From a virus, in IMG/VR virus record IMGVR_UViG_3300025128_000465, positions 1-20,133 of that record: DNA of 20,133 bases; one strand, given 5' to 3'. The position numbers were made by a program, and so were the translations under genes. Below are positions 2,659-17,416 of this stretch, one piece after another. Position 1 is the first letter of the stretch. Every line of letters starts with the position of its first letter. The notes under the pieces are model-generated. The model saw only the letters and a list, made by a program, of their open reading frames with translations, ran no database searches and was not told the origin of the DNA.

Positions 2659-3332
2659 CTTACCGGATACCTCGCTTGTTCGTTTCTATACATATCTTGC
2701 CTGTTCTTTCCTTCGCTTAATTGTTTAAGACCAGACAAGGCCTCCCCATATCTCTCTTTGTACGCATTAAATACGTCTGACTCACCTTTCATAAAAACTT
2801 GAGCCTCTAATAAAGATCCGTACAAGAGAACTGAGTCATAATTATCTCCTAACCATGAAGTATTTGCCGTAACAATAGACTGTGGATAAAAGAAATAATG
2901 TAATTCGGTTGTATAACTTTGATCTGGAGTTGGTCCTAAAATATAGGAGTCCTGATCAAACAAAGCATAATGCGTTGGTTTACCAGTAGCCGTTGGGTCT
3001 GGAAAAGATTCTCTAATAAAATTTACATCTTTGTTTAAAAGATAGGAATAAACACCTGTGGAATCTATTACAGCTAAAGAAAAATTAGCCAACCAATCAG
3101 ATGGTACTGTTAAATATTGATTTCCAGAGGCCATATTTCCTGTAACATTTTTTCTTAAATCAAGAATTTGCACAGAATTAAATATTCTTCTTTCAGCTTG
3201 TCGAATAAACGTATTGATTTGCTCTTGACTGGTAAATGTGGCAGAAGCCCCATCCGTGTCAGAAAAAGAGGTATCAGGGAAATCGTTTTCACAATATCCT
3301 TTTATAGTTTCAAAAAGCTGTGTGTAATTCAT
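2655..3332 (-). CDS. Phage adaptor / head-tail connector protein (gp11-like type)
   Basis: This is a 225-residue protein. The N-terminal helix carries MNYTQLFETIKGYCENDF. Next comes FTSQEQINTFIRQAERRIF, a pattern typical of phage adaptor proteins in which a helix pair forms the ring on the portal. The middle (about 65-165) is beta-rich, with YLTVPSDWL and YILGPTPDQSYTTELHYFF. The C-terminal helices include LLYGSLLEAQVFMKGESDV. Length and pattern fit the T7 gp11 / SU10 adaptor class that joins portal to tail tube. It is coupled by four-base overlaps to the genes on both sides. A second, different connector-like protein lies at 3915-4628, so the two may form successive rings. The family call is from memory of patterns, without a search. 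Confidence 0.72.
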   Translation of the reverse strand: MNYTQLFETIKGYCENDFPDTSFSDTDGASATFTSQEQINTFIRQAERRIFNSVQILDLRKNVTGNMASGNQYLTVPSDWLANFSLAVIDSTGVYSYLLNKDVNFIRESFPDPTATGKPTHYALFDQDSYILGPTPDQSYTTELHYFFYPQSIVTANTSWLGDNYDSVLLYGSLLEAQVFMKGESDVFNAYKERYGEALSGLKQLSEGKNRQDMYRNEQARYPVR

Positions 3333-3547
3333 TTACCTTTAGACCCGTTAGAAACAGCTTTTTTTAAGCTTGGTAAAAATCTATAACTCAAAGAATGAGA
3401 AACATCTATAGCTCCAGAAGAATAGTTTAAACCTTTTGTAGCGGCTCCTGTCCCTCTAGTTTTTAATGTTTGTGTTTTTCTAACATCATTAGGATAACCG
3501 CTCGCTTGAGGCACCGGAACACTTTTTGGTTGCTTTATAATCTTCAT
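3329..3547 (-). CDS. Small basic virion-region protein with KTRGTGAATKG motif
   Basis: This 72-residue protein is strongly basic and poor in acidic residues. Residues about 18-40 contain YPNDVRKTQTLKTRGTGAAT followed by KG. The RGTGAA-(T/I)-(K/R)-G core is one I recall from small proteins in many marine phages. Ser-rich segments follow, and the C-terminus is Lys-rich (SLKKAVSNGSKGK). The start is ATG 3547 with AGGAG about 7 bases upstream. Its stop overlaps the adaptor start by four bases. It is probably a small head- or connector-associated protein, possibly one that contacts DNA, but nothing in the sequence proves a function. Confidence 0.62.
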   Translation of the reverse strand: MKIIKQPKSVPVPQASGYPNDVRKTQTLKTRGTGAATKGLNYSSGAIDVSHSLSYRFLPSLKKAVSNGSKGK

Positions 3548-3555
3548 AAATTCTC

Positions 3556-3915
3556 CTATTCTGTGGTAACTATTACGTTACCCACATTTGCATCTGCAAT
3601 TAAACTATTAGGATAACCAAGACCAAAAGGGTCTCTTAATCCAACTGGATTAAAACCATACTGAGTATTTCTAGCTTTTGATGTAGGATTGGCGTTTAAA
3701 TCTGGCCTTGGGTTCCTTAAAGCTTGTGGGTCGTCAATAGGCTTCATTCCAACTTGCAGTTGCGGCTGATCTTGCTCAAAACATTCAGGACAAACTAAAA
3801 TGTTTACCTTTTTTGTCTTGATCGTTAACTGCTTTAACTGCTTTAATTTAAATCGAAATCCGCACCTATCACATTCTGCAATAGCGTGTTTGCCAGAAGC
3901 ATAAGCCCTACCCAT
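3556..3915 (-). CDS. Small zinc-ribbon virion-region protein
   Basis: This 119-residue protein has two CxxC knuckles. They are C15-D-R-C18 and C42-P-E-C45, separated by a basic KLKQLKQLTIKTKK stretch, which together form a convincing zinc ribbon. The rest is Pro/Asn-rich (LRNPRPDLN, YGFNPVGLRDPFGLGYP) and looks extended. The combination 'CDRCGFRxKLKxLK' with a later 'CPECFExDxPQLQ' is one I recall from proteins beside head-tail connector genes in marine and Roseobacter-type phages. The ATG overlaps the stop of the upstream connector gene by one base (TAATG). Zinc binding is inferred from cysteine spacing. A structural part in the neck is likely from context; transcription control is less likely. 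Confidence 0.72.
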   Translation of the reverse strand: MGRAYASGKHAIAECDRCGFRFKLKQLKQLTIKTKKVNILVCPECFEQDQPQLQVGMKPIDDPQALRNPRPDLNANPTSKARNTQYGFNPVGLRDPFGLGYPNSLIADANVGNVIVTTE

Positions 3916-4628
3916 TACCTTGCAGAGAACGAACTAGTAGGTACGACCCTAATAGACGCTTTTTCTCTGTCCTCTTCTGAGGCAAGATTCCATTGCTCCT
4001 CATAATCCTGCTTTAAAGGACCAATTCTTCCTTCTGCTCCCGGTATTTTAACAGATAAATAGTATGCTAATCCAGCAATTAAACAATTATAAAATCTAAA
4101 TGGTATCGCTTGTGTGTTCACTCCGTTACCTGCGTCATCAATTCTTTTTAATCTCCAGTAAACAAAAGTATAAGTTTCAGATGTATCTGGCGCTGGATAA
4201 AGATTAATTTGAGGAGGAACTGAACCAGATGATGTTGTTGCTCCTGACCTTCTATCTATATAAACCTGTATAGGTCTGCCTGTAGAGTTTTTATTAGGTA
4301 TGGTGGCGTAAGTTGAAACACTTATCCTTGTTATGCTTAAATCTTGTTGGGTAGAGCCTGTTCCTGTTCTGATAACATGCTCCAATAAATCTATGGTATC
4401 TGCCGGTAAATCATAAGTTATAGTCCCCGGAGTTAGTGCCACCGAACCTTCTTCTATTGTCCATAAATTTACTCCACGATTAGACCACTCGATTGTTAAT
4501 AAGTTAAGTGACCTTCTAGCAGTCCTAAAATGATAACCAGTTCTAGCTTCTACCCCACATCTTTCAAAGGCTTCTTCTATGATTTCATTAACATTTGGTG
4601 TAAAACTTGTTGTTCCTGTTGTAGTCAT
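3915..4628 (-). CDS. Head-tail adaptor protein (tail tube A / gp4-like)
   Basis: This is a 237-residue protein. The N-terminal part holds NEIIEEAFERCGVEARTGYH and ARRSLNLLTIEWSNRGVNLW. This helix pair is characteristic of the tail tubular protein A / P22 gp4-type adaptor families that plug the portal after packaging. A beta-rich centre follows (residues about 60-165: GTITYDLPADTIDLLEHV, INLYPAPD, YTFVYWRLKRIDD). A C-terminal helical part contains FRFYNCLIAGLAYYLSVKIP. It is coupled to its neighbours by a four-base overlap upstream and a one-base overlap downstream. Together with the protein at 2655-3332 it probably forms the neck. The distinction between the two adaptor types is by pattern only. 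Confidence 0.78.
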   Translation of the reverse strand: MTTTGTTSFTPNVNEIIEEAFERCGVEARTGYHFRTARRSLNLLTIEWSNRGVNLWTIEEGSVALTPGTITYDLPADTIDLLEHVIRTGTGSTQQDLSITRISVSTYATIPNKNSTGRPIQVYIDRRSGATTSSGSVPPQINLYPAPDTSETYTFVYWRLKRIDDAGNGVNTQAIPFRFYNCLIAGLAYYLSVKIPGAEGRIGPLKQDYEEQWNLASEEDREKASIRVVPTSSFSAR

Positions 4629-4918
4629 TTCTTTTTAACACTATTTATATATTTTCTATACACTCCAGCGGCATCTTTTTTACCCATGACTCTGGCTCTC
4701 TGTTCCATCGCTATAGCGGCTTGTATCTTATGAGCTTTAGATCTACCACTATTTCTGATCTTACTTATACTTTTTACTGCATCATCTCTCGTAGCAAACT
4801 TTAATCCTTTTATTGTACCCTTTGGATTTTCATCCGTATATAAATCAGAATGTTTCTTAGACCTTGCGGGTTGTCCTTTTTTTCTTGGTATTCTTGGTTT
4901 TGAGGATGGTTTTAACAT
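4625..4918 (-). CDS. Small basic conserved phage protein (SKKHSDLYTDENPKGT type)
   Basis: This 97-residue protein is Lys/Arg-rich. It contains GQPARSKKHSDLYTDENPKG near residues 16-35, then TIKGLKFATRDDA, a helix with GRSKAHKIQAAIAMEQRAR (58-76), and VYRKYINSVKKK at the end. I recall this pattern from small proteins of phages and some large eukaryotic viruses, with no known role. Its start lies 62 bases inside the 3' end of the upstream basic gene, an unusually long overlap. The likely ribosome binding site (GGGAGG, 11 bases before ATG) is inside that gene. The high charge suggests contact with DNA in the virion; that is inference. Confidence 0.72.
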   Translation of the reverse strand: MLKPSSKPRIPRKKGQPARSKKHSDLYTDENPKGTIKGLKFATRDDAVKSISKIRNSGRSKAHKIQAAIAMEQRARVMGKKDAAGVYRKYINSVKKK

Positions 4919-5150
4919 TTGTTGGTTTACCTCCCGGATTCCCAGCCGCTCTTTTTCTCTGAACCGCTGATTTTATTTGTGAAGCTGTCATTGTTTTTGC
5001 TTTTGCTCTTGGGACGCATTTTGGATAGCCACGTTTGCTGGTCTTCGTTGATTTGCGTCCACAGGATTGGTATTTTCCTTTTTTTTTAGGCGCACCTATA
5101 TCGACCCAGTCACCTTTCTTGCCTTTACCAAACCATTCTTTTAGAGACAT
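4857..5150 (-). CDS. Small basic conserved phage protein (VDIGAPKKKGKYQSCGR type)
   Basis: This 97-residue protein starts MSLKEWFGKGKKGDWVDIGA. It continues with a Lys-rich stretch holding CGRKSTKTSKRGYPKCVPRA, in which two cysteines sit 14 residues apart. A helix follows (MTASQIKSAVQRKRAAGNPG) and then a Lys/Thr-rich tail. The pattern 'W-V-D-I-G-A-P-K-K ... C-G-R-K ... YPKCVP' is one I associate with small conserved proteins in phages and algal or giant viruses. The last 20 codons overlap the start of the next gene in another frame. It belongs to the basic-protein cassette between tail and capsid genes. The function is unknown; a DNA-binding virion role is plausible from charge. Confidence 0.72.
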   Translation of the reverse strand: MSLKEWFGKGKKGDWVDIGAPKKKGKYQSCGRKSTKTSKRGYPKCVPRAKAKTMTASQIKSAVQRKRAAGNPGGKPTNVKTILKTKNTKKKRTTRKV

Positions 5151-6486: not shown

Positions 6487-6942
6487 TTAAACCATTCTGC
6501 CCCTTGTTTTACCTTTTCTAGCTATTCCGTCGGCTCTGGTTACTTTTGTACCACCGCTAACGCCACCCTTTGTACCACCTTTGGAAGCCATACCACCGCC
6601 ACGCATTTTAACAGCACCGCCTTTTGCCATGGTTTTTACTGCCCCACCTTTAGCCATTCCTTTGGCTGTTTTCTTATTTTTTATTTCGTCTATAGCGCCA
6701 CCAATATTATAGCCTTTAGCCATGCCGCCGCCCATCATCTTTTTAACAGCACCTCCTTTGGCCATCTTTTTAACAGCGCCTCCTTTAGCCATTACTGCAC
6801 CGCCTTTTGTGCCGCCTTTAGCCATGCCGCCGCCACGCATTTTAACTGCTCCTCCTTTAGCCATTTTACCTTTGCCGTCCATAGCAAATGTAGGAATCAT
6901 TTTTCCTGTTTTTGGGTCTCTACTCATAGGCATCTTAGCCAT
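6487..6942 (-). CDS. MAKGGAV-repeat basic protein with ADGIA-RGKTR C-terminus
   Basis: The preferred start is ATG 6942 (151 residues), because GGAG lies 6 bases before it. An in-frame ATG at 6948 abuts that site with no spacing. The heptad MAKGGAV occurs exactly five times (about residues 27, 51, 60, 96 and 105). Variants such as MAKGGTKGGAV and MAKGYNIGGAI fill the gaps. A block of about 22 residues near 27 recurs near 105. The protein is rich in Gly, Lys and Met, with almost no acidic residues. It ends RADGIARKGKTRGRMV, nearly the same as the end of the protein at 7622-8296. Short Gly/Lys/Met repeat proteins with this end are familiar to me from marine phages, always without known function. 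Binding to nucleic acid or an internal-virion role is inferred from charge. Confidence 0.72.
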   Translation of the reverse strand: MAKMPMSRDPKTGKMIPTFAMDGKGKMAKGGAVKMRGGGMAKGGTKGGAVMAKGGAVKKMAKGGAVKKMMGGGMAKGYNIGGAIDEIKNKKTAKGMAKGGAVKTMAKGGAVKMRGGGMASKGGTKGGVSGGTKVTRADGIARKGKTRGRMV

Positions 6943-7609
6943 CTTCATCTCCTTTGTATAGGTTGTTAAATGTTACTTCTGGGTCCATGTACGAGTCATC
7001 CTGCTCAGCGCAGTGTGTATGTTGGCTTGGTCTAAAATCAGGTGCGCCTTCACCTGTAACCCAAAGAGCAGGACTTGTAACTCTGACTCTATTATTAGGT
7101 AATGCAACCATGTTGCCCTTCCAAGGTCCGTCTGTCAACACCATAACGTGACTCTGCTTGTGCTGGGCTGGACAGTCTGCGATTTCGCTTTCGGTGAAGT
7201 CCACAGTGAAGAGATATCTCGATGTATGAAACTCCCCGGCGATCTTACATAACCATGGGCTAGGCTTACACCTGTTAAAGGACACAATGGAGTGGTGGTG
7301 TGATGGACAGTCCCACGGTTGTGCGAGGTGGGTTTCCATTCTTTCAGGCCACTCATCCATTGGGATGTCCCCACATAAGGCTGTGATGGGCATCCTTGCC
7401 CACATGGCACCTCCGTGCGGATTACTTTCGCCTTCTTCCTCTTCACATCCTGTAAATATGATTTGGAAACTGAGACATCGGTCCGGCATTGTTGTGACTG
7501 CGACTGCCAGTCCGTGTATAAACTCTCCGTGATATTTTTGATGTCCATGTGTAAACTCTTTTCTAATCCAAACTTTTGTATATGGAATGTTACTAATTAA
7601 ATATGCCAC
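6935..7609 (-). CDS. Conserved marine-phage protein, Cys/His-rich, GC-richer than neighbours
   Basis: This is a 224-residue protein. It opens MAYLISNIPYTKVWIRKEFT and contains GGAMWARMPITALCGDIPMD (about 67-86) and WDCPSHHHSIVSFNRCKPSP. A beta-rich middle follows (SRYLFTVDFTESEIADCPAQ, SHVMVLTDGPWKGNM), and the C-terminus is acidic (GDEDG). The pattern is one I recall from conserved unannotated proteins of marine phages and cyanophages. It holds several Cys and His residues that could bind metal, but no standard spacing. Sampled DNA (7141-7260 and 7321-7380) is about 52% G+C, against 27-35% in sampled lines of neighbours. That suggests transfer or strong constraint. It overlaps the MAKGGAV gene by 8 bases. 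The function is unknown. Confidence 0.7.
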   Translation of the reverse strand: MAYLISNIPYTKVWIRKEFTHGHQKYHGEFIHGLAVAVTTMPDRCLSFQIIFTGCEEEEGESNPHGGAMWARMPITALCGDIPMDEWPERMETHLAQPWDCPSHHHSIVSFNRCKPSPWLCKIAGEFHTSRYLFTVDFTESEIADCPAQHKQSHVMVLTDGPWKGNMVALPNNRVRVTSPALWVTGEGAPDFRPSQHTHCAEQDDSYMDPEVTFNNLYKGDEDG

Positions 7610-7621
7610 CCTAATCCTCCT

Positions 7622-8296
7622 TTATCTCATCTTACATCTAGTTTTACCTCTAATGGCTATGCCATCTGCTTTCCTCTTGCCATTTCCTACTGCTCCGCCT
7701 TGAGAAAATCTAAGTTTTCCTCTTTTCATAAAGTCTTTAAAAGCATCTTTGAAGTCTAAATCTTTTAGCATTTGACCAGTTGTTCTGAAGTCCTTAGTTC
7801 CTCCTTTACCTTTGGTGCTCCTAATATTTTTACCTGTTTCACCAATTCTACCTGACCTTGGGGTAAGGACTCTTCCTACTTCTTTAGTTCCCCCGGTACC
7901 CCTAGTATCTCTAATGTTTTTTTTGCTACCCATTTTTGGCAGAGGTCTTACAACTGTTTTTAAGTCTCTTGCTTTCTTTTCAGGTTTTTTTTCTACAGGT
8001 TTTAAAGCTGATTTAGCTATATTTTTAGAACTACCTAATACAGGTTTTCTAGGTCTACCAGAGCCTTTTAAGGCTTTAGGGTCTATGTTTTTTGCGCTAC
8101 CCATGACTGGTTTTCTTCTAGCTTCTTCTGCTTTTGTCTTTGTAGAATATTTTTTACCTCGCCATGTGAAAGTTTTTCGACCTTCATCTTTAAATTGTTT
8201 AAACGCTTTTGCAAACGATAAGTCGTCCGTATCGGTTGCTTTCCTTGTGCTTCTATCTTTGACTCCTGAAAAAGCCGCATAGCTACTAGATCTCAT
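7622..8296 (-). CDS. Basic repeat protein with GSxKNI motifs and ADGIA-RGKTR C-terminus
   Basis: This is a 224-residue, very basic protein. Residues 27-51 (SFAKAFKQFKDEGRKTFTWR then GKKYSTK) match a short 'FxxAFxxxxxxGxxxFxWRGKxY' module I recall from phage structural proteins. A partial second copy, FKDAFKDFMKRGKLRF, lies at 182-197. Between them a motif recurs: GSAKNI (66), GSSKNI (88), GSKKNI (123) and TGKNI (154). The latter two are each followed by a TRGTGGTK- or TKGKGGTK-like block. The C-terminus, about 206-223, is KRKADGIAIRGKTRCKM, shared with the MAKGGAV protein. GGGGAAAA precedes the ATG at 8296. It is likely a disordered, DNA-contacting virion protein; this is inference. Confidence 0.72.
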   Translation of the reverse strand: MRSSSYAAFSGVKDRSTRKATDTDDLSFAKAFKQFKDEGRKTFTWRGKKYSTKTKAEEARRKPVMGSAKNIDPKALKGSGRPRKPVLGSSKNIAKSALKPVEKKPEKKARDLKTVVRPLPKMGSKKNIRDTRGTGGTKEVGRVLTPRSGRIGETGKNIRSTKGKGGTKDFRTTGQMLKDLDFKDAFKDFMKRGKLRFSQGGAVGNGKRKADGIAIRGKTRCKMR

Positions 8297-8297
8297 T

Positions 8298-8600
8298 TTA
8301 TTTTCCCCAAAATATTTGTTGAATCATAATAATAAAAGCAGTTACAGCACTACCTGCGCCTGCCGCCCACATTAAAGTTTTCCATCCGCCTTTGGCTTCT
8401 GATAACACTTTATGAATATCAGCTAAAGATTTTTTAATTTCTTCTATGTCTGATTTCATTTCATCCATGTCGTCTTGTATATGTTTGATTTCATTTGCCT
8501 GAACAGCAACTTTGCTCTCAATTTCCACAGGTTTTCTTCCTTTACGTTTTCTTGGTTTCTTGTTGAAAATTTTATTTATTTCTTCTTTTTCCATTACCAT
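8298..8600 (-). CDS. Coiled-coil protein with C-terminal membrane segment (holin- or XhlA-like candidate)
   Basis: This is a 100-residue protein. A basic head (KKPRKRKGRK, residues 14-23) precedes a coiled coil at about 32-68 (IQDDMDEMKSDIEEIKKSL). A single membrane segment follows at about 74-96 (LMWAAGAGSAVTAFIIMIQQ), with a short GK end. This coiled-coil/GGWKTL/one-TM layout is typical of XhlA-like and holin-like proteins of phages. A lysis role is therefore the best guess, though no endolysin lies in the window. The ATG at 8600 overlaps the upstream gene by 7 bases; an in-frame ATG at 8594 forms a TAATG junction and could be the real start. A spanin-like or virion membrane role remains possible. 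Confidence 0.68.
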   Translation of the reverse strand: MVMEKEEINKIFNKKPRKRKGRKPVEIESKVAVQANEIKHIQDDMDEMKSDIEEIKKSLADIHKVLSEAKGGWKTLMWAAGAGSAVTAFIIMIQQIFWGK

Positions 8601-9948: not shown

Positions 9949-10857
9949 TTAAGCTCCGGGTGAACCAAACATTCCCAATGGGTCAGAGAACCCAAAAGAA
10001 TATCTTTCACGAGCCTTATAACGAACGTTACCTGTGTCAAAGTCTCCCTCCATGGAAGTAGCCATAGGTGTACGAACGAAATGCTTAAGTCCATTTGGAA
10101 CATCCGTTGTTAGGAAGTAAGCGTCTCCGTCGGTTAGGTAGTGGTTAACTGCATAACCTTCTGGAATAGCTCCTGTCGTTCTAAGAGCGTTGATATCGTT
10201 ATCAGCAGTTCCAGTTCTTAGGTCTGTTTGTAACAAACGAGTAGCCACGAACATTAGATCTGGTGGGATAATCAACTTACGAGGTTTAGCCGCTATCAAC
10301 AGTCCTCTTTCATCTGTCCACTTAGATATTTGAATAACATGAGCCTCTAAAGAGGTTTCATTCAAATCAGTAGCAGTTGCTGGTCTGTTTGAGTTTGAAC
10401 CACCTGATACCAATGGGTGAGCTGTAGAAAATAATGCTACACCGTCACCGCCCGGAAATGCGCTGTCAAATCCTTGATTAAGGATATTAGCCGCCTTTAC
10501 CTGTTTAGTGTATGCCATAGCACGAGCTAAAGCCTTGGTGTAACGAGCAGACAAAGAATCATAGAGGTTGTCCTCCATGGCTTCTTCTGTAATCGAAAAA
10601 CCGAGAGCAACTGTCTCATGGTTATAGCGTGAAGTGTATGCTTCCTGAGCATTGTCAAATGCGATGGCTTCGCCTTCGTTTTTAACAGGTGCCGCAGAAA
10701 AACCGGATAGTTTCGTCTCCTCCTCGAAAGAACGCTCGGAAGTTTCTGTTTCAAAAATTTCTTTGTGCTCTTCGCCGTATTTTGCGTACTCAAGCCCATA
10801 TAGAGCGTTAAGTCCCGGAAGGAGTTCTTTAAGTAATTGTGCTCTTGAAATAGCCAT
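9949..10857 (-). CDS. Major capsid protein
   Basis: This is a 302-residue protein. It begins MAISRAQLLKELLPGLNALY and carries SFEEETKLSGFSAAPVKNEG, ALGFSITEEAMEDNLYDSLS and ANILNQGFDSAFPGGDGVAL, ending with RERYSFGFSDPLGMFGSPGA. 'LLPGLNALFG...Y' with 'FSITEEAMEDN-x-Y' is a pattern typical of phage major capsid proteins of the HK97 fold, Mu gpT-like class. AAGGAG lies 8 bases before the ATG. It follows the accessory structural gene by 12 bp and is followed by a strong terminator. Both facts suit a very highly expressed shell protein. The DNA here is visibly more codon-adapted (frequent cgt/cgc-type codons) than in the small-protein cassette. Confidence 0.9.
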   Translation of the reverse strand: MAISRAQLLKELLPGLNALYGLEYAKYGEEHKEIFETETSERSFEEETKLSGFSAAPVKNEGEAIAFDNAQEAYTSRYNHETVALGFSITEEAMEDNLYDSLSARYTKALARAMAYTKQVKAANILNQGFDSAFPGGDGVALFSTAHPLVSGGSNSNRPATATDLNETSLEAHVIQISKWTDERGLLIAAKPRKLIIPPDLMFVATRLLQTDLRTGTADNDINALRTTGAIPEGYAVNHYLTDGDAYFLTTDVPNGLKHFVRTPMATSMEGDFDTGNVRYKARERYSFGFSDPLGMFGSPGA

Positions 10858-11719: not shown

Positions 11720-12160
11720 TTATCCTCTACTGCCTTTGGTAGTGGTTGATTTCTTTTCACTAAACATTGGCATACGAGGGTCATTTTGTCTATATAGATT
11801 AGCGTCCACAGCGGCCTGCTGGTCTGATGTTTTCTTAGCTATGTATTCTTTTTTAGCTTGCAACAAACCTTTAGGTGCCTTGTGAAGCATTAATCCACCA
11901 ATTTCAACTTCATTTCCAGTGTTACCCCATGAGGGGATTTCTGGATGATCTTCTTTTTTGCAAGGTATATATCCTTGTGACCTTTTCTTCATAACGTTTC
12001 TTACATCATCTTGCCCCATAACAGAGGTTCTTACATATAAGAATTCGTCATCACCGTTAGGTGTTGGGTTAGGCAGTACGTCATCACTGAAATCTTTTAT
12101 ATTGTATTTTGTTTGGCTCATTTCACGAGTTTCTGATTCACGATTATTCCTATTAGCCAT
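11720..12160 (-). CDS. Conserved head-region structural protein of unknown role
   Basis: This 146-residue hydrophilic protein has FSDDVLPNPTPNGDDEFLYV followed by RTSVMGQDDVRNVMKKRSQG. It then has YIPCKKEDHPEIP and GNEVEIGGLMLHKAPKGLLQ, and a Lys/Ser-rich tail (SEKKSTTTKGSRG). The 'GY-x-P-x-x-x-E-D-HP' and 'GGLML-x-K-x-P' pieces are ones I recall from proteins between scaffold and capsid genes in marine phages. It overlaps the scaffold-like gene by 8 bases, and GGAG lies 8 bases before ATG 12160. It may be a scaffold partner or minor head protein. No catalytic signature is visible. Confidence 0.68.
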   Translation of the reverse strand: MANRNNRESETREMSQTKYNIKDFSDDVLPNPTPNGDDEFLYVRTSVMGQDDVRNVMKKRSQGYIPCKKEDHPEIPSWGNTGNEVEIGGLMLHKAPKGLLQAKKEYIAKKTSDQQAAVDANLYRQNDPRMPMFSEKKSTTTKGSRG

Positions 12161-13016
12161 TAGCTTGCTCCTTCATAATTTGTTCTGCGTATTTTTCAAT
12201 AGGTACTCCAAGACGTTTGGCAATGGATACCTGAGTTTTAGTTAATCTAACTTTATTAGAACCAGACGTTCTTGATGCTGGAGCAACTACGTTGGCGGGT
12301 TTTTTCCCGAATTTGTTTGGAAATTCCTCACGCATACGGGCATCTATCTGGCTGTAATATTCTTCTGAACCAGAAGGAACCCCACGCTTGACTAATTCAT
12401 CGTGAATTCCGAAGGCGGCACCTCTCATAACTGCGTCGGTTTCAAACCAACGATTTTCAGTAACCCACTGACGGGTGCGTTCGTCAGGTACTACTTGTTG
12501 TTGTACACTATTTTGAGTTTCTTGTAAAGGTTTTTGGTGAACAGGTTCATAGGTTTCTACCTCTCTTTGTTCTACTGTAAACCTAGCTAACTTCTTCTGA
12601 GCCTCCACCATTTTATCTGGCTCTCCCGCTTCGTAAGCGTCTTTATATTCCTTTTCCGCTTGTGCGAGTTCAGCCCCAACTCTGTTTTTGTGACTCTCAA
12701 GAAGGACGGTTTCACCTCTGGATAGCTTATCTTGCAAAGTTTGATTTTGCTCTGCAACTTTTTGTGCATAATTCATAGCCTCCTGTTGCTCTCTCATAAA
12801 ACGTTCTTTATCTCTTCTTTCGTCGTGATAAGCACGTTTTAATTGATTAATCCTTTTTTGAACATTTCCACTGTATGTAGAAATTTCATCCTCTGGTATA
12901 TCTACATCTCCTAAATGTTTTTTTCCTTTATCCTCATCTGGAGTATCATCTACTATCTCTACCTCATTTTCGGATACTTCTTCTTCTATTTCGTAGTTTT
13001 TTTCTTGCTCTGACAT
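12153..13016 (-). CDS. Scaffold-like head assembly protein
   Basis: This protein has 287 residues, starting at ATG 13016 (MSEQEKNYEIEEEVSENEVE). AGGAG sits 7 bases before this ATG; the frame could be extended to a GTG at 13034, but that lacks a site. The N-terminal 45 residues are strongly acidic. A long coiled coil covers about 55-170 (RINQLKRAYHDERRDKERFM, EQNQTLQDKLSRGETVLLES). The C-terminal 40 residues are basic, with VRLTKTQVSIAKRLGVPIEK followed by YAEQI. Acidic head, coiled-coil body and small basic helical C-terminus are the hallmark of phage scaffolds, and the C-terminus would bind capsid protein. It lies three genes upstream of the major capsid gene. The call rests on architecture and location. 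Confidence 0.8.
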   Translation of the reverse strand: MSEQEKNYEIEEEVSENEVEIVDDTPDEDKGKKHLGDVDIPEDEISTYSGNVQKRINQLKRAYHDERRDKERFMREQQEAMNYAQKVAEQNQTLQDKLSRGETVLLESHKNRVGAELAQAEKEYKDAYEAGEPDKMVEAQKKLARFTVEQREVETYEPVHQKPLQETQNSVQQQVVPDERTRQWVTENRWFETDAVMRGAAFGIHDELVKRGVPSGSEEYYSQIDARMREEFPNKFGKKPANVVAPASRTSGSNKVRLTKTQVSIAKRLGVPIEKYAEQIMKEQANG

Positions 13017-13026
13017 TTTTTCTCCT

Positions 13027-13383
13027 TTAAGCACGAGTTATGCCTCGTGGGTCAGCGACAACACCTTCTACAGCGTCATCGTTAATTAATCTAAATTCCT
13101 GCTCACCCTCTTCTGTCTGCACCAAAAATCTAGTTCCGGTATAGGCTCTCATTATTATAAAATCGCCTTCCTTGCACCATGGTCCAGTCAAAAACTTTTC
13201 TTCATCCTTATAGGCTAGGTCTCCAATTTTTGTAACTAACCCGATTATGGAAGCCGTCTCTTCTGCTTTTTTATGCGTGTCAGCTCGTATAATCTTTGTG
13301 TTTTCAAATTTATCGTCTAGCTTTGGTATAGCTATAAGAATTTTGTAGCCTCTTGGTTCAGGCATTTTTAAATTGTCACTCAT
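13027..13383 (-). CDS. GroES-like co-chaperonin
   Basis: This is a 118-residue protein. It has PRGYKILIAIPKLDDKFENT near the start, then ETASIIGLVTKIGDLAYKDE, TGPWCKEGDFIIMRAYTGTR and FRLINDDAVEGVVADPRGIT. Beta-barrel spacing with a mobile-loop-like region (residues about 25-45), the 'GLV-x-x-G' strand and the closing 'DD-x-VEGVV' strand match the Cpn10/GroES fold. Phage versions such as T4 gp31 cap host GroEL for capsid folding. GGAGG lies about 8 bases before the ATG, inside the 45-residue gene it overlaps. No GroEL gene is visible, so the host enzyme is presumably used. Placement between portal and scaffold genes fits a capsid-folding job. Confidence 0.82.
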   Translation of the reverse strand: MSDNLKMPEPRGYKILIAIPKLDDKFENTKIIRADTHKKAEETASIIGLVTKIGDLAYKDEEKFLTGPWCKEGDFIIMRAYTGTRFLVQTEEGEQEFRLINDDAVEGVVADPRGITRA

Positions 13384-13513
13384 CAGGTAAATCCTCCAGT
13401 AGTCTAATTACACGTTGCAAACCTTTAATCTCACCCACTCCTAAAAGATAGACTTCTCTATCAACAGCTTTGTGAATTAAAGAGTCTCCAATTCTTTTAA
13501 TTTCATCCTTCAT
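13376..13513 (-). CDS. Small helical protein between portal and co-chaperonin (45 aa)
   Basis: The frame runs from ATG 13511-13513 to TGA 13376-13378. It overlaps the portal gene by 11 bases and the co-chaperonin gene by 8, so it fills the gap exactly. The protein starts MKDEIKRIGDSLIHKAVDRE and continues VYLLGVGEIKGLQRVIRLLE, ending DLPDE. It is amphipathic and helical. It lacks a strong Shine-Dalgarno and is probably translated by coupling to the portal gene. No family is recognised; a head-assembly accessory role is a guess from position. Confidence 0.68.
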   Translation of the reverse strand: MKDEIKRIGDSLIHKAVDREVYLLGVGEIKGLQRVIRLLEDLPDE

Positions 13514-15911
13514 CTGACTTAGTATCAGCTCTTTCAAGTCCAATTCTTACTCCCTCCTTAAAGTCTTCTTTTTCTTCTCTTTCCTTTCCTTCCTGCATCT
13601 TTTGCTCTGCCTCTAGGCTATCAATGGCAATCTTGGCTCCTTCAATTTCTGCTTGTGTATCGATTCGCTTATTTTCTCTTTCATCTTTTGCCAGTGCCTC
13701 TTGAGATTTAAGATTAAGTTCTGCCTCGTCCATTGCTTTATCGTGCTGAAATCTAGCTTGTTTAAGTTCCAGTTCAGCTTTTTGCATTTGGACAACAGGG
13801 TCTTCTGCTTGTTGTTGAGCTTGTTGTTGTTGTGCTTCCGCCTGTCCTTTCTGTAACAATTTATCAGAAGCCATAGCAACTACTCTGGACAACTCTACTT
13901 CCACATCCTCTGGTAACTTCTCATCTACCGGAGGTAACGGAACGCCCATCATCTTCTCTATTTCAACTCTATATTGGAAAGCTATATGCTCTGCGATATG
14001 TGCCTGTACTGCCGCTTGTATCGCCCCTGCATTTGGACTTTGTCCGACCATCTCCCTTATTTTAGGGTCTTGAGCCATATTCATGTGTGTCTGTATGTGG
14101 GCTTCATGGTCTTGGTATTGAAATGCTTTTGTTGGTTTACTCTTGAGTAAGCTCATGTTTTCTGATACAGGGTCCATAGGTTTAAAATCGTCTTCCAAAG
14201 GAACGATCTTTTGAACCTCTTTGACACCTAAAACCTCTAGCATTTGTCTATGCAACAAAGGCAGATCATATATATCTGGAGCTCCTTGTGCTAACTGTAA
14301 AGCGGCTTGATACTGGACTACTTTTTGCGCCATTGTACTTGCGTTTGGGTCTGACACAGGTATGACTTCCACTAAATCATAATCTGCCATTTTTGCCATT
14401 TGCGGTCCATCAACCTCATATTTGTAAACTGGTGGGGTGTAGTCCCGAATAATTACTGAAATAAGTTTAAACTCTTTTCGCATTGCATTATGGACTCTGG
14501 CCTGCACGGCTGACATAACTTTCAATGTTCGCTCTAGTATTGCCAGAGTAGTTCCTACAGGAGTTTGTCCTGACATGTCGCCAACTTTTAAATCTGCTAC
14601 CGAAGCAAATCTCCTTCCTTCTTCGATAATTTGATTTAATAATTGAAACAAGGTGCCTGAAGGTTCTTTATACGGCAGGGGTACGATAGATTCTTTTATC
14701 GTGATTCCTGTTACATCTACATCTCTAAACTCTCCCGGAGCTATTGGTGTGTCGTCACCTTTGACTCGTAGGTCTTTTGATTTGAATCCGCCCGGTAAAT
14801 TAGAAAGAGTTCCTGCATCTACCAGTTGTCTGAGGATAGAAGTTGCTGATTCTGCAAAACCACCTACTAAATGAATAAGTCCAAACCCATAGAACCCGAA
14901 TCCGGGAACATAGGTGTAGTGAACAAAGTGCATACGTTTCTTTTTGATTGGGTCTTCTTCCAGATAGTTTCTACGGATACCTAATATCTCCCCAGTGGAT
15001 AACATTGTGACCACATAAGGCAAAGCTATTTGTGTGGTTTGCCCGTCTTTCTTGTCCTCGAATCCTGCTAAGTCTAATTCACAATGACACTCAAAAATGG
15101 TATATCTTTCGTCTTTAACTGCCGAATATCCAGTTTCTTGGTCCTGACTTCTTTCTATGGTTGTTGTATTTTTTTCAGGGTCTGGTAAATCTATATCCAT
15201 ATAGAAACCCATGGACATTAACTTTCGCAGTTCGTTTTCTGTCTTTTTCATTCTGTGAGTGATACGAGGAGAAGACTCTAGGTCTGAAGCTCCGTAAGGA
15301 ACAATCAAATCTTCTGCTGGTACAAACATTGCTACTTGCCTGTTTAAACTTGGGTCAAAGTAAACTTTCTTGAAAGCTGACCCAGCGACCGGTAAAGACC
15401 AAAGTAATCTTTCATGCTCTGTCCTGTACTCTGGCATTTTTTCTGTCAACTCGTAGTTCATGCTTTCCTGAACACGATTTGCCGCTTCCTGCTTTTCTAC
15501 ATTTAACTTTCCAACTATCTGTGTTTTTACAGGACCAGATGCAGGGAACGTAGATAATATGGTTTCTGACTGAAACTTTACAACTGCCTCGGATAATACA
15601 GGGTGAAATACCCCGCAGGCTCCGTCCCACGGCTCCGTTCTTTCCTCTATTTTTAGTCCGAGAAGTTTTATTCCGTCAGAATACGTTCTCTCCCATTCCT
15701 TTCGAGAATCAATATCTGTATTAATATGTGAAAGTATTTCATCGGATACTTCGTCAAGTTCACCGAGATCCATAGATTCAGCAAGGTTTTCCTCAAAGGT
15801 TACAGGTTTTACCTCAACTTCGACTTCGACTTCGCCTTCATCTGCGTCAATCTCGATTTCGATGTCCATTTCCGCTGGAACAAGCGGTTCAAGTGGTTTT
15901 TCTATACTCAT
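13503..15911 (-). CDS. Portal protein (P22-like, 802 aa)
   Basis: The protein forms the dodecameric DNA entry ring at one capsid vertex and the docking site for TerL. At 802 residues it fits the large P22/SU10-type portals. Residues about 10-38 are an acidic repeat (IEIEIDADEGEVEVEVEVKP). Conserved-looking core pieces include EPWDGACGVFHPVLSEAVVK, SAFKKVYFDPSLNRQVAMFV, VHYTYVPGFGFYGFGLIHLV and GTLFQLLNQIIEEGRRFASV followed by ADLKVGDMSGQTP. From about 690 on it becomes a Gln/Glu/Lys-rich coiled coil (QQQQAQQQAED, MQKAELELKQARFQHDKAM), perhaps projecting into the head like the P22 barrel. It abuts terL by a one-base overlap (TAATG). The family call is confident. Confidence 0.92.
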   Translation of the reverse strand: MSIEKPLEPLVPAEMDIEIEIDADEGEVEVEVEVKPVTFEENLAESMDLGELDEVSDEILSHINTDIDSRKEWERTYSDGIKLLGLKIEERTEPWDGACGVFHPVLSEAVVKFQSETILSTFPASGPVKTQIVGKLNVEKQEAANRVQESMNYELTEKMPEYRTEHERLLWSLPVAGSAFKKVYFDPSLNRQVAMFVPAEDLIVPYGASDLESSPRITHRMKKTENELRKLMSMGFYMDIDLPDPEKNTTTIERSQDQETGYSAVKDERYTIFECHCELDLAGFEDKKDGQTTQIALPYVVTMLSTGEILGIRRNYLEEDPIKKKRMHFVHYTYVPGFGFYGFGLIHLVGGFAESATSILRQLVDAGTLSNLPGGFKSKDLRVKGDDTPIAPGEFRDVDVTGITIKESIVPLPYKEPSGTLFQLLNQIIEEGRRFASVADLKVGDMSGQTPVGTTLAILERTLKVMSAVQARVHNAMRKEFKLISVIIRDYTPPVYKYEVDGPQMAKMADYDLVEVIPVSDPNASTMAQKVVQYQAALQLAQGAPDIYDLPLLHRQMLEVLGVKEVQKIVPLEDDFKPMDPVSENMSLLKSKPTKAFQYQDHEAHIQTHMNMAQDPKIREMVGQSPNAGAIQAAVQAHIAEHIAFQYRVEIEKMMGVPLPPVDEKLPEDVEVELSRVVAMASDKLLQKGQAEAQQQQAQQQAEDPVVQMQKAELELKQARFQHDKAMDEAELNLKSQEALAKDERENKRIDTQAEIEGAKIAIDSLEAEQKMQEGKEREEKEDFKEGVRIGLERADTKSDEG

Positions 15912-17416
15912 TAGTAGTACTTAGCCCTTCTTTTGTAAAAAGTTGACTCTGGTTCATCTGTAGGAATCTTAATAAAACCACCCTGTCTAAATCTAAGTAG
16001 TGCTTGACTTGTAGAGTCTACCAAGTCGTCGTGATCTCCATTTGGAAATGAAGCTACTTCTTCTACAACTTCTTCTGCCCATCGTTTATCAGGGGCCCAT
16101 ACTAGACCGGATGCGAATAAATCTGAAATAGCGTTTATACGAGCTATCTTATCTGAACCTTTTGAAGGTGTATATTCAGAAATCGGTATCCCTGTCTTTC
16201 TCATTTCATAAATTAACGGGGCACCCGCCGCTTTTTTCTCCACAATCAACGTATCTGGTTGCCATTGGTCATAAAATTCATACGCCGTTTGCTTTAATTC
16301 TGGGAACTCCATCCTATCCTTGTAGGCATCCAAAAGAATTAGATTCGCTATCTCATCACCATTGTCATTTGGTTTATAAAATATACCCCATGTCGTACAA
16401 GCAGAGTAATCTGCTCGATTATGCTTTTCAAAGGCGGTATCCCACGACTGAATAATGTAATCACAAGGTGGGGGGTTGTCTTTTTCCCAAGTTTGCCACA
16501 TATCTCGCTTGATAATTGCACCTTCCTCCGAGGTGGGGTTTTGTTGGTACTGTGCTTCCCACTTGGGTACGGGTATCTCCGCCTTAATTGATTCAAGTTC
16601 TTCCGCTTTCCAGAATTCAGGCCACAAAGGCTTTCCGGACGGCATAATCGCAGGCAGTTCTATCACTTCCCACTCATCTGAATCACGTTTAATCGAATTT
16701 TGTATAATCTGCCCGGTTAAATCTTTCTTTGACCACCTTGTCATCACGACAACTATCGAACCTCCGGGTTGTAGACGTTGTCGGGGGCCAGATGAATACC
16801 ACTCATATACCCTTTCATACACCTGTGGGGATCCCATCATAGCCTCTTGCTCTGAATGGGGGTCATCTATTATCAAAACATCAGCACCTTTACCCGTAAC
16901 CGCTCCTCCGACACCGATAGCGAAATAATCACCACCTTTATCTGTATTCCATCTACCTGCCGCTTTTGAATCTGCCGATAATTTCAAATCAAATATCTTT
17001 TGGAAGTCAGGAGAGTTCACAAGGTTTCTTACTTTCCTTCCGAATCCCACTGCAAGCTCCGCTGTGTGTGCTGTTTGAATAATTTTTTTCTCCGGATACT
17101 TACCTAAATACCACGCCGGAAACAAATAACTCGCAAATTCTGATTTTGTGTGCCGGGGCGGCATGTTTATAATCAACCTTTTCAACTCCCCATTGGCAAC
17201 TCTCTCAAAAGCATCTGCCATAACCTTATGATGTGACCCTCCTATAAAAGCAGACCACATCTCTTGTACAAAAGGTAAGAAAGAATCCCTACAAGTCTCT
17301 GTCTTATGCGCTTGTAACACCTGCCAAACCTTTTCTATCTCCGGAGACCCACTAGGTAACGTATCTATAACCTTAAGATACCTTTTTACCTCTGCCTTAG
17401 TTAATAAATTACCCAC
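15911..17416 (-). CDS. terL: Terminase large subunit
   Basis: This is a 501-residue ATP-driven DNA packaging motor and nuclease. The Walker A-like segment is NMPPRHTKSEF (about 84-94), with Thr in the place where many relatives have Gly. Walker B is VLIIDD (180-185). The coupling motif region is VVVMTRW (222-228). The RNase-H-like nuclease has acidic residues in QSWDTAF (D326), VEKKAAG (E393) and GDHDDLVD (about 460-467). Size and motifs match the Terminase_6-type large subunits. The start is GTG at 17414-17416, with AAGGTG 7 bases upstream. It overlaps the LexA-like gene by 8 bases and the portal gene by one. All key residues appear intact. Confidence 0.95.
   Translation of the reverse strand: MGNLLTKAEVKRYLKVIDTLPSGSPEIEKVWQVLQAHKTETCRDSFLPFVQEMWSAFIGGSHHKVMADAFERVANGELKRLIINMPPRHTKSEFASYLFPAWYLGKYPEKKIIQTAHTAELAVGFGRKVRNLVNSPDFQKIFDLKLSADSKAAGRWNTDKGGDYFAIGVGGAVTGKGADVLIIDDPHSEQEAMMGSPQVYERVYEWYSSGPRQRLQPGGSIVVVMTRWSKKDLTGQIIQNSIKRDSDEWEVIELPAIMPSGKPLWPEFWKAEELESIKAEIPVPKWEAQYQQNPTSEEGAIIKRDMWQTWEKDNPPPCDYIIQSWDTAFEKHNRADYSACTTWGIFYKPNDNGDEIANLILLDAYKDRMEFPELKQTAYEFYDQWQPDTLIVEKKAAGAPLIYEMRKTGIPISEYTPSKGSDKIARINAISDLFASGLVWAPDKRWAEEVVEEVASFPNGDHDDLVDSTSQALLRFRQGGFIKIPTDEPESTFYKRRAKYY

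Follow-up and report, generated by a model that had tools for sequence, protein, structure and literature searches.

The window considered here, a 20,133-base IMG/VR virus record, comes from an uncultured short-tailed phage (podovirus) and represents its head-tail module on the minus strand. The genes follow in the order terminase large subunit (15911..17416, minus strand, as are all coordinates in this sentence), portal protein (13503..15911), GroES-like protein, putative scaffolding protein (phrog_28737, 12153..13034, its role assigned by position), major capsid protein (MCP, 9949..10857), several small genes in a row, and a tail adaptor in the position of P22 gp4 (3915..4628). The MCP gene is the upstream border and the adaptor gene the downstream border of the interval that contains the tagged genes described below; a TM/coiled-coil protein (8298-8600), counted as non-structural, also lies inside it. 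By the comparison of MCP and portal, the nearest isolates are Pag-Yong1/MinM2, HTVC023P, HTVC027P, DSL-LC04 and CRP-901/902.

Two genes of this interval encode proteins with a similar C-terminus, referred to as the tag. The first protein (6487..6948, minus strand) consists of 153 aa, has a Lys/Gly/Met-rich (MAKGGAV)n body, and ends with RADGIARKGKTRGRMV; the tag occupies the final 16 codons (6490..6537, minus strand), followed by the stop at 6487-6489. A segment similar to its head (SRDPKTGKMIPTFAMDGKGKMAKGGAV) is present in other tagged proteins, and no family match was found for the protein. The second protein (7622..8296, minus strand; 224 aa) is basic, mostly disordered, and ends with KADGIAIRGKTRCKMR, again in the final 16 codons (7625..7672, minus strand; stop at 7622-7624). 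The original prediction gave this second reading frame correctly, while for the first one it proposed 6487-6942; position 6942 corresponds to an internal Met, and the true frame extends to 6948. The second protein carries a mini-domain, SFxxAFxxxxxxGxxTFTWRGKxYsTk (residues 28-61; 8114..8215, minus strand), with a predicted helix, a two-strand hairpin and a helix and a central pLDDT of about 90. In the AlphaFold model of this protein only this 34-residue helix-hairpin-helix is folded, and the tag is disordered (pLDDT about 50). The mini-domain can also be found in other proteins of the clade, both tagged and untagged.

When the C-terminal 16-mers of the two proteins are anchored at their ends, 10 of 16 residues are identical and the BLOSUM62 score is 47; among 50,000 random pairs of 16-mers generated from the compositions of the two proteins, the maximum was 36. 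The tag-trimmed bodies give only blastp matches with E of at least 2.6. Thus, the claim that a common end is attached to two unrelated bodies proved correct, as did the observation that GGAV is present in both proteins. The gene between them (6935..7609, minus strand), initially noted as distinct in composition, indeed belongs to a family of its own, phrog_3704 (labelled “ferredoxin”); it has no tag, and its product has no Pfam match.

Tags of two kinds, or dialects, were found. The dialect A consensus, derived from 470 unique reading frames, is R-[AG]-D-G-[CI]-A-x-[KR]-G-[KH]-T-[KR]-G-[KR]-[MIF]-x-COOH (e.g., RADGIAQRGKTRGKMV); both proteins of the window belong here, the second one with the rarer C-K-M-R end. 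The dialect B consensus (151 frames) is R-G-[AC]-G-I-A-x-K-G-V-R-[PK]-[AC]-K-M-[RVY]-COOH (e.g., RGAGIARKGVRPAKMR). With up to 14 extra residues past the tag allowed in the count, the length from the Arg to the stop is exactly 16 residues in 419 of 470 cases for dialect A and in 138 of 151 for dialect B (about 90%); a minority of tags are extended (e.g., ...KGKTKGKMVKMAYGGKAC). The tag should not be taken for a P-loop NTPase motif (PS00017-like G-x4-G-K-[ST]): the Lys, which in a P-loop is invariant and set in a folded nucleotide-binding domain, is variable here (72% in dialect A, with His in 26%; Val in dialect B), and the modelled tag is disordered. In the PDB, sequence searches returned nothing relevant for the tag, MCP, portal or two body families. 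Among the papers searched for the tag motif, no phage paper matched, the single text match being an unrelated paper on endometriosis.

The codons of the tag indicate the level at which it is conserved. For tag codons encoding the same residue, a synonymous difference occurs in 51% of comparisons within one genome, where 61% is expected from the codon usage of the bodies, and in 57.5% between genomes. This is near saturation, so the copies are old and selection acts on the peptide; judging by these codons, the tag is conserved as protein, not as DNA. A recombination site or a regulatory or packaging signal in the DNA, with the peptide as its by-product, could account for the shift of one Gly codon to GGA/GGG and for a next ATG that overlaps or closely follows the stop, as though part of the tag acted as a ribosome-binding site, but this near-saturated divergence among copies in one genome contradicts it for the tag as a whole, and we dismiss it as extremely improbable. 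The shifted codon is number 13, which encodes the Gly preceding K/R-M, as seen across 417 copies of dialect A; in all but nine of these an ATG lies within about 20 bases of the tag stop, often overlapping it. This suggests that the ribosome-binding site of the next gene may be inside the tag.

The bodies to which the tag is attached are diverse. We clustered 552 tag-trimmed bodies with repeats masked and coverage required, instead of by plain single linkage, which chained through KGG repeats. About 280 clusters were obtained, including 215 singletons, and 137 of the 148 contigs with at least two tagged bodies have no related pair among them. An alignment of 102 diverse tagged bodies coincides at the GG and the tag only; the Gly-Gly shortly upstream of the tag is almost invariant. 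Searches of Pfam, PHROGs and NCBIfam with these 102 bodies assigned a function to none of them and gave weak composition-type matches, except for EF-hand-like loops in about five. Such calcium loops (DLTGDGKITRADVL) occur in otherwise domain-free tagged bodies of loci L006, L030, L038 and L490.

The presence of the tag on a recognisable domain can be followed in DUF6321, a family known elsewhere. Without the tag, SLRAWNC-like residues form the exact end of 116 distinct proteins; 33 tagged proteins extend past that Cys, either with ADGGYVTKADGCATKGKTKGRFV or directly with ADGCAIRGHTKGRVV. The tag state changes at least nine times on the gene tree, versus 26-33 times for shuffled labels. The MPSKSKAQHNFM family carries dialect A in some genomes and dialect B in another. 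These two families remove simple full-length homology as the explanation. A single family with a common full-length body had been named in advance as the observation that would speak against different bodies sharing one end; it is contradicted by the roughly 280 clusters and by the coexistence of tagged and untagged DUF6321. A weaker form of homology, in which the disordered bodies of one family diverged past recognition and only the end was kept, can refer to the common composition and KGG words and to the chaining of half of the bodies by single linkage without coverage control. Nevertheless, we consider it very improbable: distinct domains are tagged (DUF6321, MPSKSKAQHNFM, TFTWRGK and EF-hand-like), and at least for DUF6321 it is contradicted by the untagged proteins, by a junction that always falls at one residue, and by the repeated gain or loss of the tag. 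The tag is almost certainly a real modular element. As for DUF6321 itself, it cannot be regarded as a proven cyanophage virion protein; the S-SM1 paper lists T4-GC119, the cyanophage cluster that contains it, as hypothetical.

IMG/VR was scanned for dialect A with three degenerate-codon patterns (DGIA..GKT; DGC..GKT with stop; DG..GHT with stop), each of which gave at least 120 matches. The IMG/VR scans as a whole gave at least 402 tagged contigs (as all our contig counts, a lower bound), mostly fragments, and nearly all of them contain core genes of one podovirus clade. Homologues of the core genes of the window or its relatives are present in 324 of the 329 loci examined, the other five being fragments of 1-4 kb. 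Dialect B, first met in relatives that were sampled by MCP and had no A tag, was found in at least 120 more contigs, all matching the same core gene set; about seven of the dialect B contigs contain neither MCP nor the adaptor in the stretch examined. Similar ends, initially mentioned for marine phages, do occur in related phages; the tag is not general to marine phages and belongs, apart from a few short fragments, to one clade. Among 84,980 bacterial and archaeal genomes scanned, two MAG contigs from GTDB have the tag (L123 and L124); they are phage contigs of the same clade in a Chitinophagales MAG and a Gammaproteobacteria MAG, and represent either infection signals or bin contamination.

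Among cultured relatives, the tag was not found in HTVC023P, HTVC027P, CRP-901, DSL-LC04 and QDWS535, and hence phages of the clade can do without it. The tblastn search of cultured phages with tag peptides of 22-28 aa gave zero matches and was probably insensitive, since the copy in the cultured Planktothrix phage Pag-Yong1 has diverged: its protein UMO75986.1 ends with GGMIGRDGCAKRGRTKGRFI. The gene of this protein occupies the same genomic position as the tagged genes of the window; in contrast to the window, it is the single tagged gene, has a different body, and is annotated only as hypothetical.

The tagged genes are almost confined to one position. Sixteen longer contigs (30-87 kb) have one to five tag sites each, grouped within a few kilobases, and the reversed control pattern had no match in these contigs. 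The core gene order is as in the window in 10 of the 16, and the tagged genes lie between MCP and the adaptor wherever both are present. Over the loci, some of which overlap, 115 tagged frames end inside this interval versus six outside; of these six, two are spurious, and the genuine exceptions are close to the interval. In fragments with the adaptor and no MCP, again with some overlap between loci, 136 of 137 tagged frames are upstream of the adaptor. In the sample selected by MCP homology rather than by the tag, 26 of the 33 contigs with both borders have a strict tag; a variant or degenerate copy is present in six of the other seven, L348 alone having none.

Each genome generally uses one dialect. 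Of the 175 contigs with at least two tags, 141 are purely A, 31 are purely B, and three are mixed (one via a different motif); thus, 172 are pure, compared to a mean of 103 and a maximum of 127 after label shuffling. This is expected if the unrelated proteins of one genome keep one version of the tag because one partner reads all of them. The dialect changes 5-12 times per core-gene tree, i.e., dialects follow phylogeny and the genome-wide coherence is inherited; no single partner stands out in these trees. Taken at the sequence level, the tag is a modular, protein-level, C-terminal element, which is restricted to one clade and one genomic location and is coherent within a genome.

The columns that co-vary most with the dialect, a comparison confounded by phylogeny, are MCP 213, p3556 80 and p10870 16. 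Within the very conserved MCP, column 213 stands out most, with L in dialect A and G in dialect B; there are only three supported independent switches, and independent-pair tests on MCP columns have no power, so we treat this putative dialect-linked site as a lead, not as evidence. The predicted MCP model is poor (pLDDT 37, from an alignment of 30 near-identical rows). The phrog_3704 gene separating the two tagged genes is present in 57 dialect B contigs versus only five dialect A contigs, which suggests that the window derives from a recombinant or early-branching dialect A phage.

It is tempting to propose that the tag is a docking label which loads diverse basic, disordered proteins into the virion, and we give this about an even chance; loading onto the virion seems less likely. 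The tagged bodies have a median net charge of +14, are poor in Cys and Trp, and contain a hydrophobic segment in 5 of 573 cases. The N-terminal 40-50 residues of the most frequent tagged body family are homologous to PHROGs of giant myoviruses annotated as virion structural protein, these annotations being homology-level labels. A virion role is suggested by this homology, the gene position, the basic bodies lacking membrane segments, and the precedent of phage T4. From the location, the exact C-terminal register, the basic disordered bodies and the coherence of dialects, we infer that a sorting or packaging tag for virion proteins, as initially proposed, is the best explanation. Its proposed role in maturation by cleavage finds no support. 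Among the head proteins scanned there was no separate match to a prohead protease family, only weak matches to fused MCP profiles.

Under this mechanism, the tag with its free C-terminus would bind one conserved phage partner during head assembly, the scaffold or the inner face of MCP being the first candidates, and would thereby bring internal or ejected proteins, the set of which changes, into the head. A new body could become cargo by acquiring the tag, in the way that T4 uses its capsid targeting sequence (CTS) at the N-terminus. A more far-reaching version seems to us possible but rather doubtful: open cargo loading across the whole clade, with a 16-residue C-terminal password, at least two dialects that switch jointly for all cargos, and a capsid or scaffold reader that co-evolves with them.

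Three other functions can be considered. The tag could be a tail binding nucleic acid or phosphate, with the proteins condensing phage DNA or binding host RNA or ribosomes; the Gly/Lys/Arg-rich sequence, its likeness to G-x4-G-K-T and the high net charge agree with this. The invariant Asp, Thr and Gly spacing, the fixed distance to the C-terminus and the two discrete dialects are better suited to a protein groove, and the P-loop Lys gives way to His in 26% and to Val in dialect B, which makes such a tail rather improbable. It is also unlikely that the tag directs proteins to a host target late in infection (membrane, lysis or transcription machinery) with no virion role. Non-structural genes of the interval (8298-8600 and phrog_3704) are compatible with it, but one clade, one interval and one dialect per genome are more natural with a partner encoded by the phage, even though a host-range effect could mimic this pattern. 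Finally, there is a small chance that the tag anchors proteins outside the capsid or neck as decoration or cement, where exposed basic disordered bodies would help adsorption or stability. The tagged genes directly adjoin capsid and cement-like genes, and rapidly changing bodies fit surface proteins; on the other hand, strongly basic bodies poor in Cys and Trp are closer to DNA-contacting internal proteins than to surface domains, and none of the 102 bodies has a surface-type domain in Pfam, PHROGs or NCBIfam.

Loading into the virion can be compared with known systems. The cargo-loading peptide of encapsulins is likewise C-terminal, is attached to unrelated cargo through a flexible linker, and is read by an HK97-fold shell; the tag differs in being on phage genes with many cargos per genome, and its binding to the shell is putative. 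We take the peptide sequences themselves to be different. The P22 ejection proteins gp7, gp16 and gp20 are recruited via the scaffold and ejected with the DNA; as with the tagged proteins, the genes of these podovirus internal proteins lie near those for head and tail. The tagged proteins show no family relation in Pfam, PHROGs or NCBIfam. To our knowledge, P22 ejection proteins have no common terminal tag. In T4, diverse basic internal proteins have only a short targeting sequence in common (PMC3012670), and a short conserved terminal peptide is similarly the sole common part of the unrelated small basic tagged proteins of one genome. The T4 sequence is N-terminal and is removed in maturation, whereas the tag is at the C-terminus, has an unrelated sequence and a putative function, and no protease was recognised for it. 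Thus, the tag is not a T4 CTS; by analogy, its mode of action may resemble that of a CTS or of an encapsulin cargo peptide.

Should the tag load virions, a single motif search would expose the internal protein repertoire of an abundant, mostly uncultured group of aquatic phages that are relatives of the pelagiphages; this repertoire would comprise several hundred proteins at present annotated as hypothetical. The tag would also supply a C-terminal signal for encapsidation that is ready to use and has natural variants in specificity, and with the help of the two dialects the reader could be sought via co-variation. The comparable internal set of T4 includes anti-restriction proteins delivered with the DNA, and by this analogy the tagged bodies would be candidate counter-defence or takeover proteins.

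Two minor observations concern neighbouring genes. The 450-aa profile phrog_727 is matched at positions 3-73 by 4625-4918 of the window, at positions 114-195 by 4857-5150, and at positions 349-433 by DUF6321; judging by these matches, it is a natural fusion joining genes of the MCP-adaptor interval. In addition, the window gene at 3329-3547 (minus strand) contains RGTGAATKGLNY, in which a further short motif, RG-x-G-AA-x-KG, can be seen; it is also present in related phages (e.g., RGGGAAVRGMGF in HTVC023P and, C-terminally, RGGGVATQGTKFSRNG in L409 and L439) and is possibly a third tag-like class.
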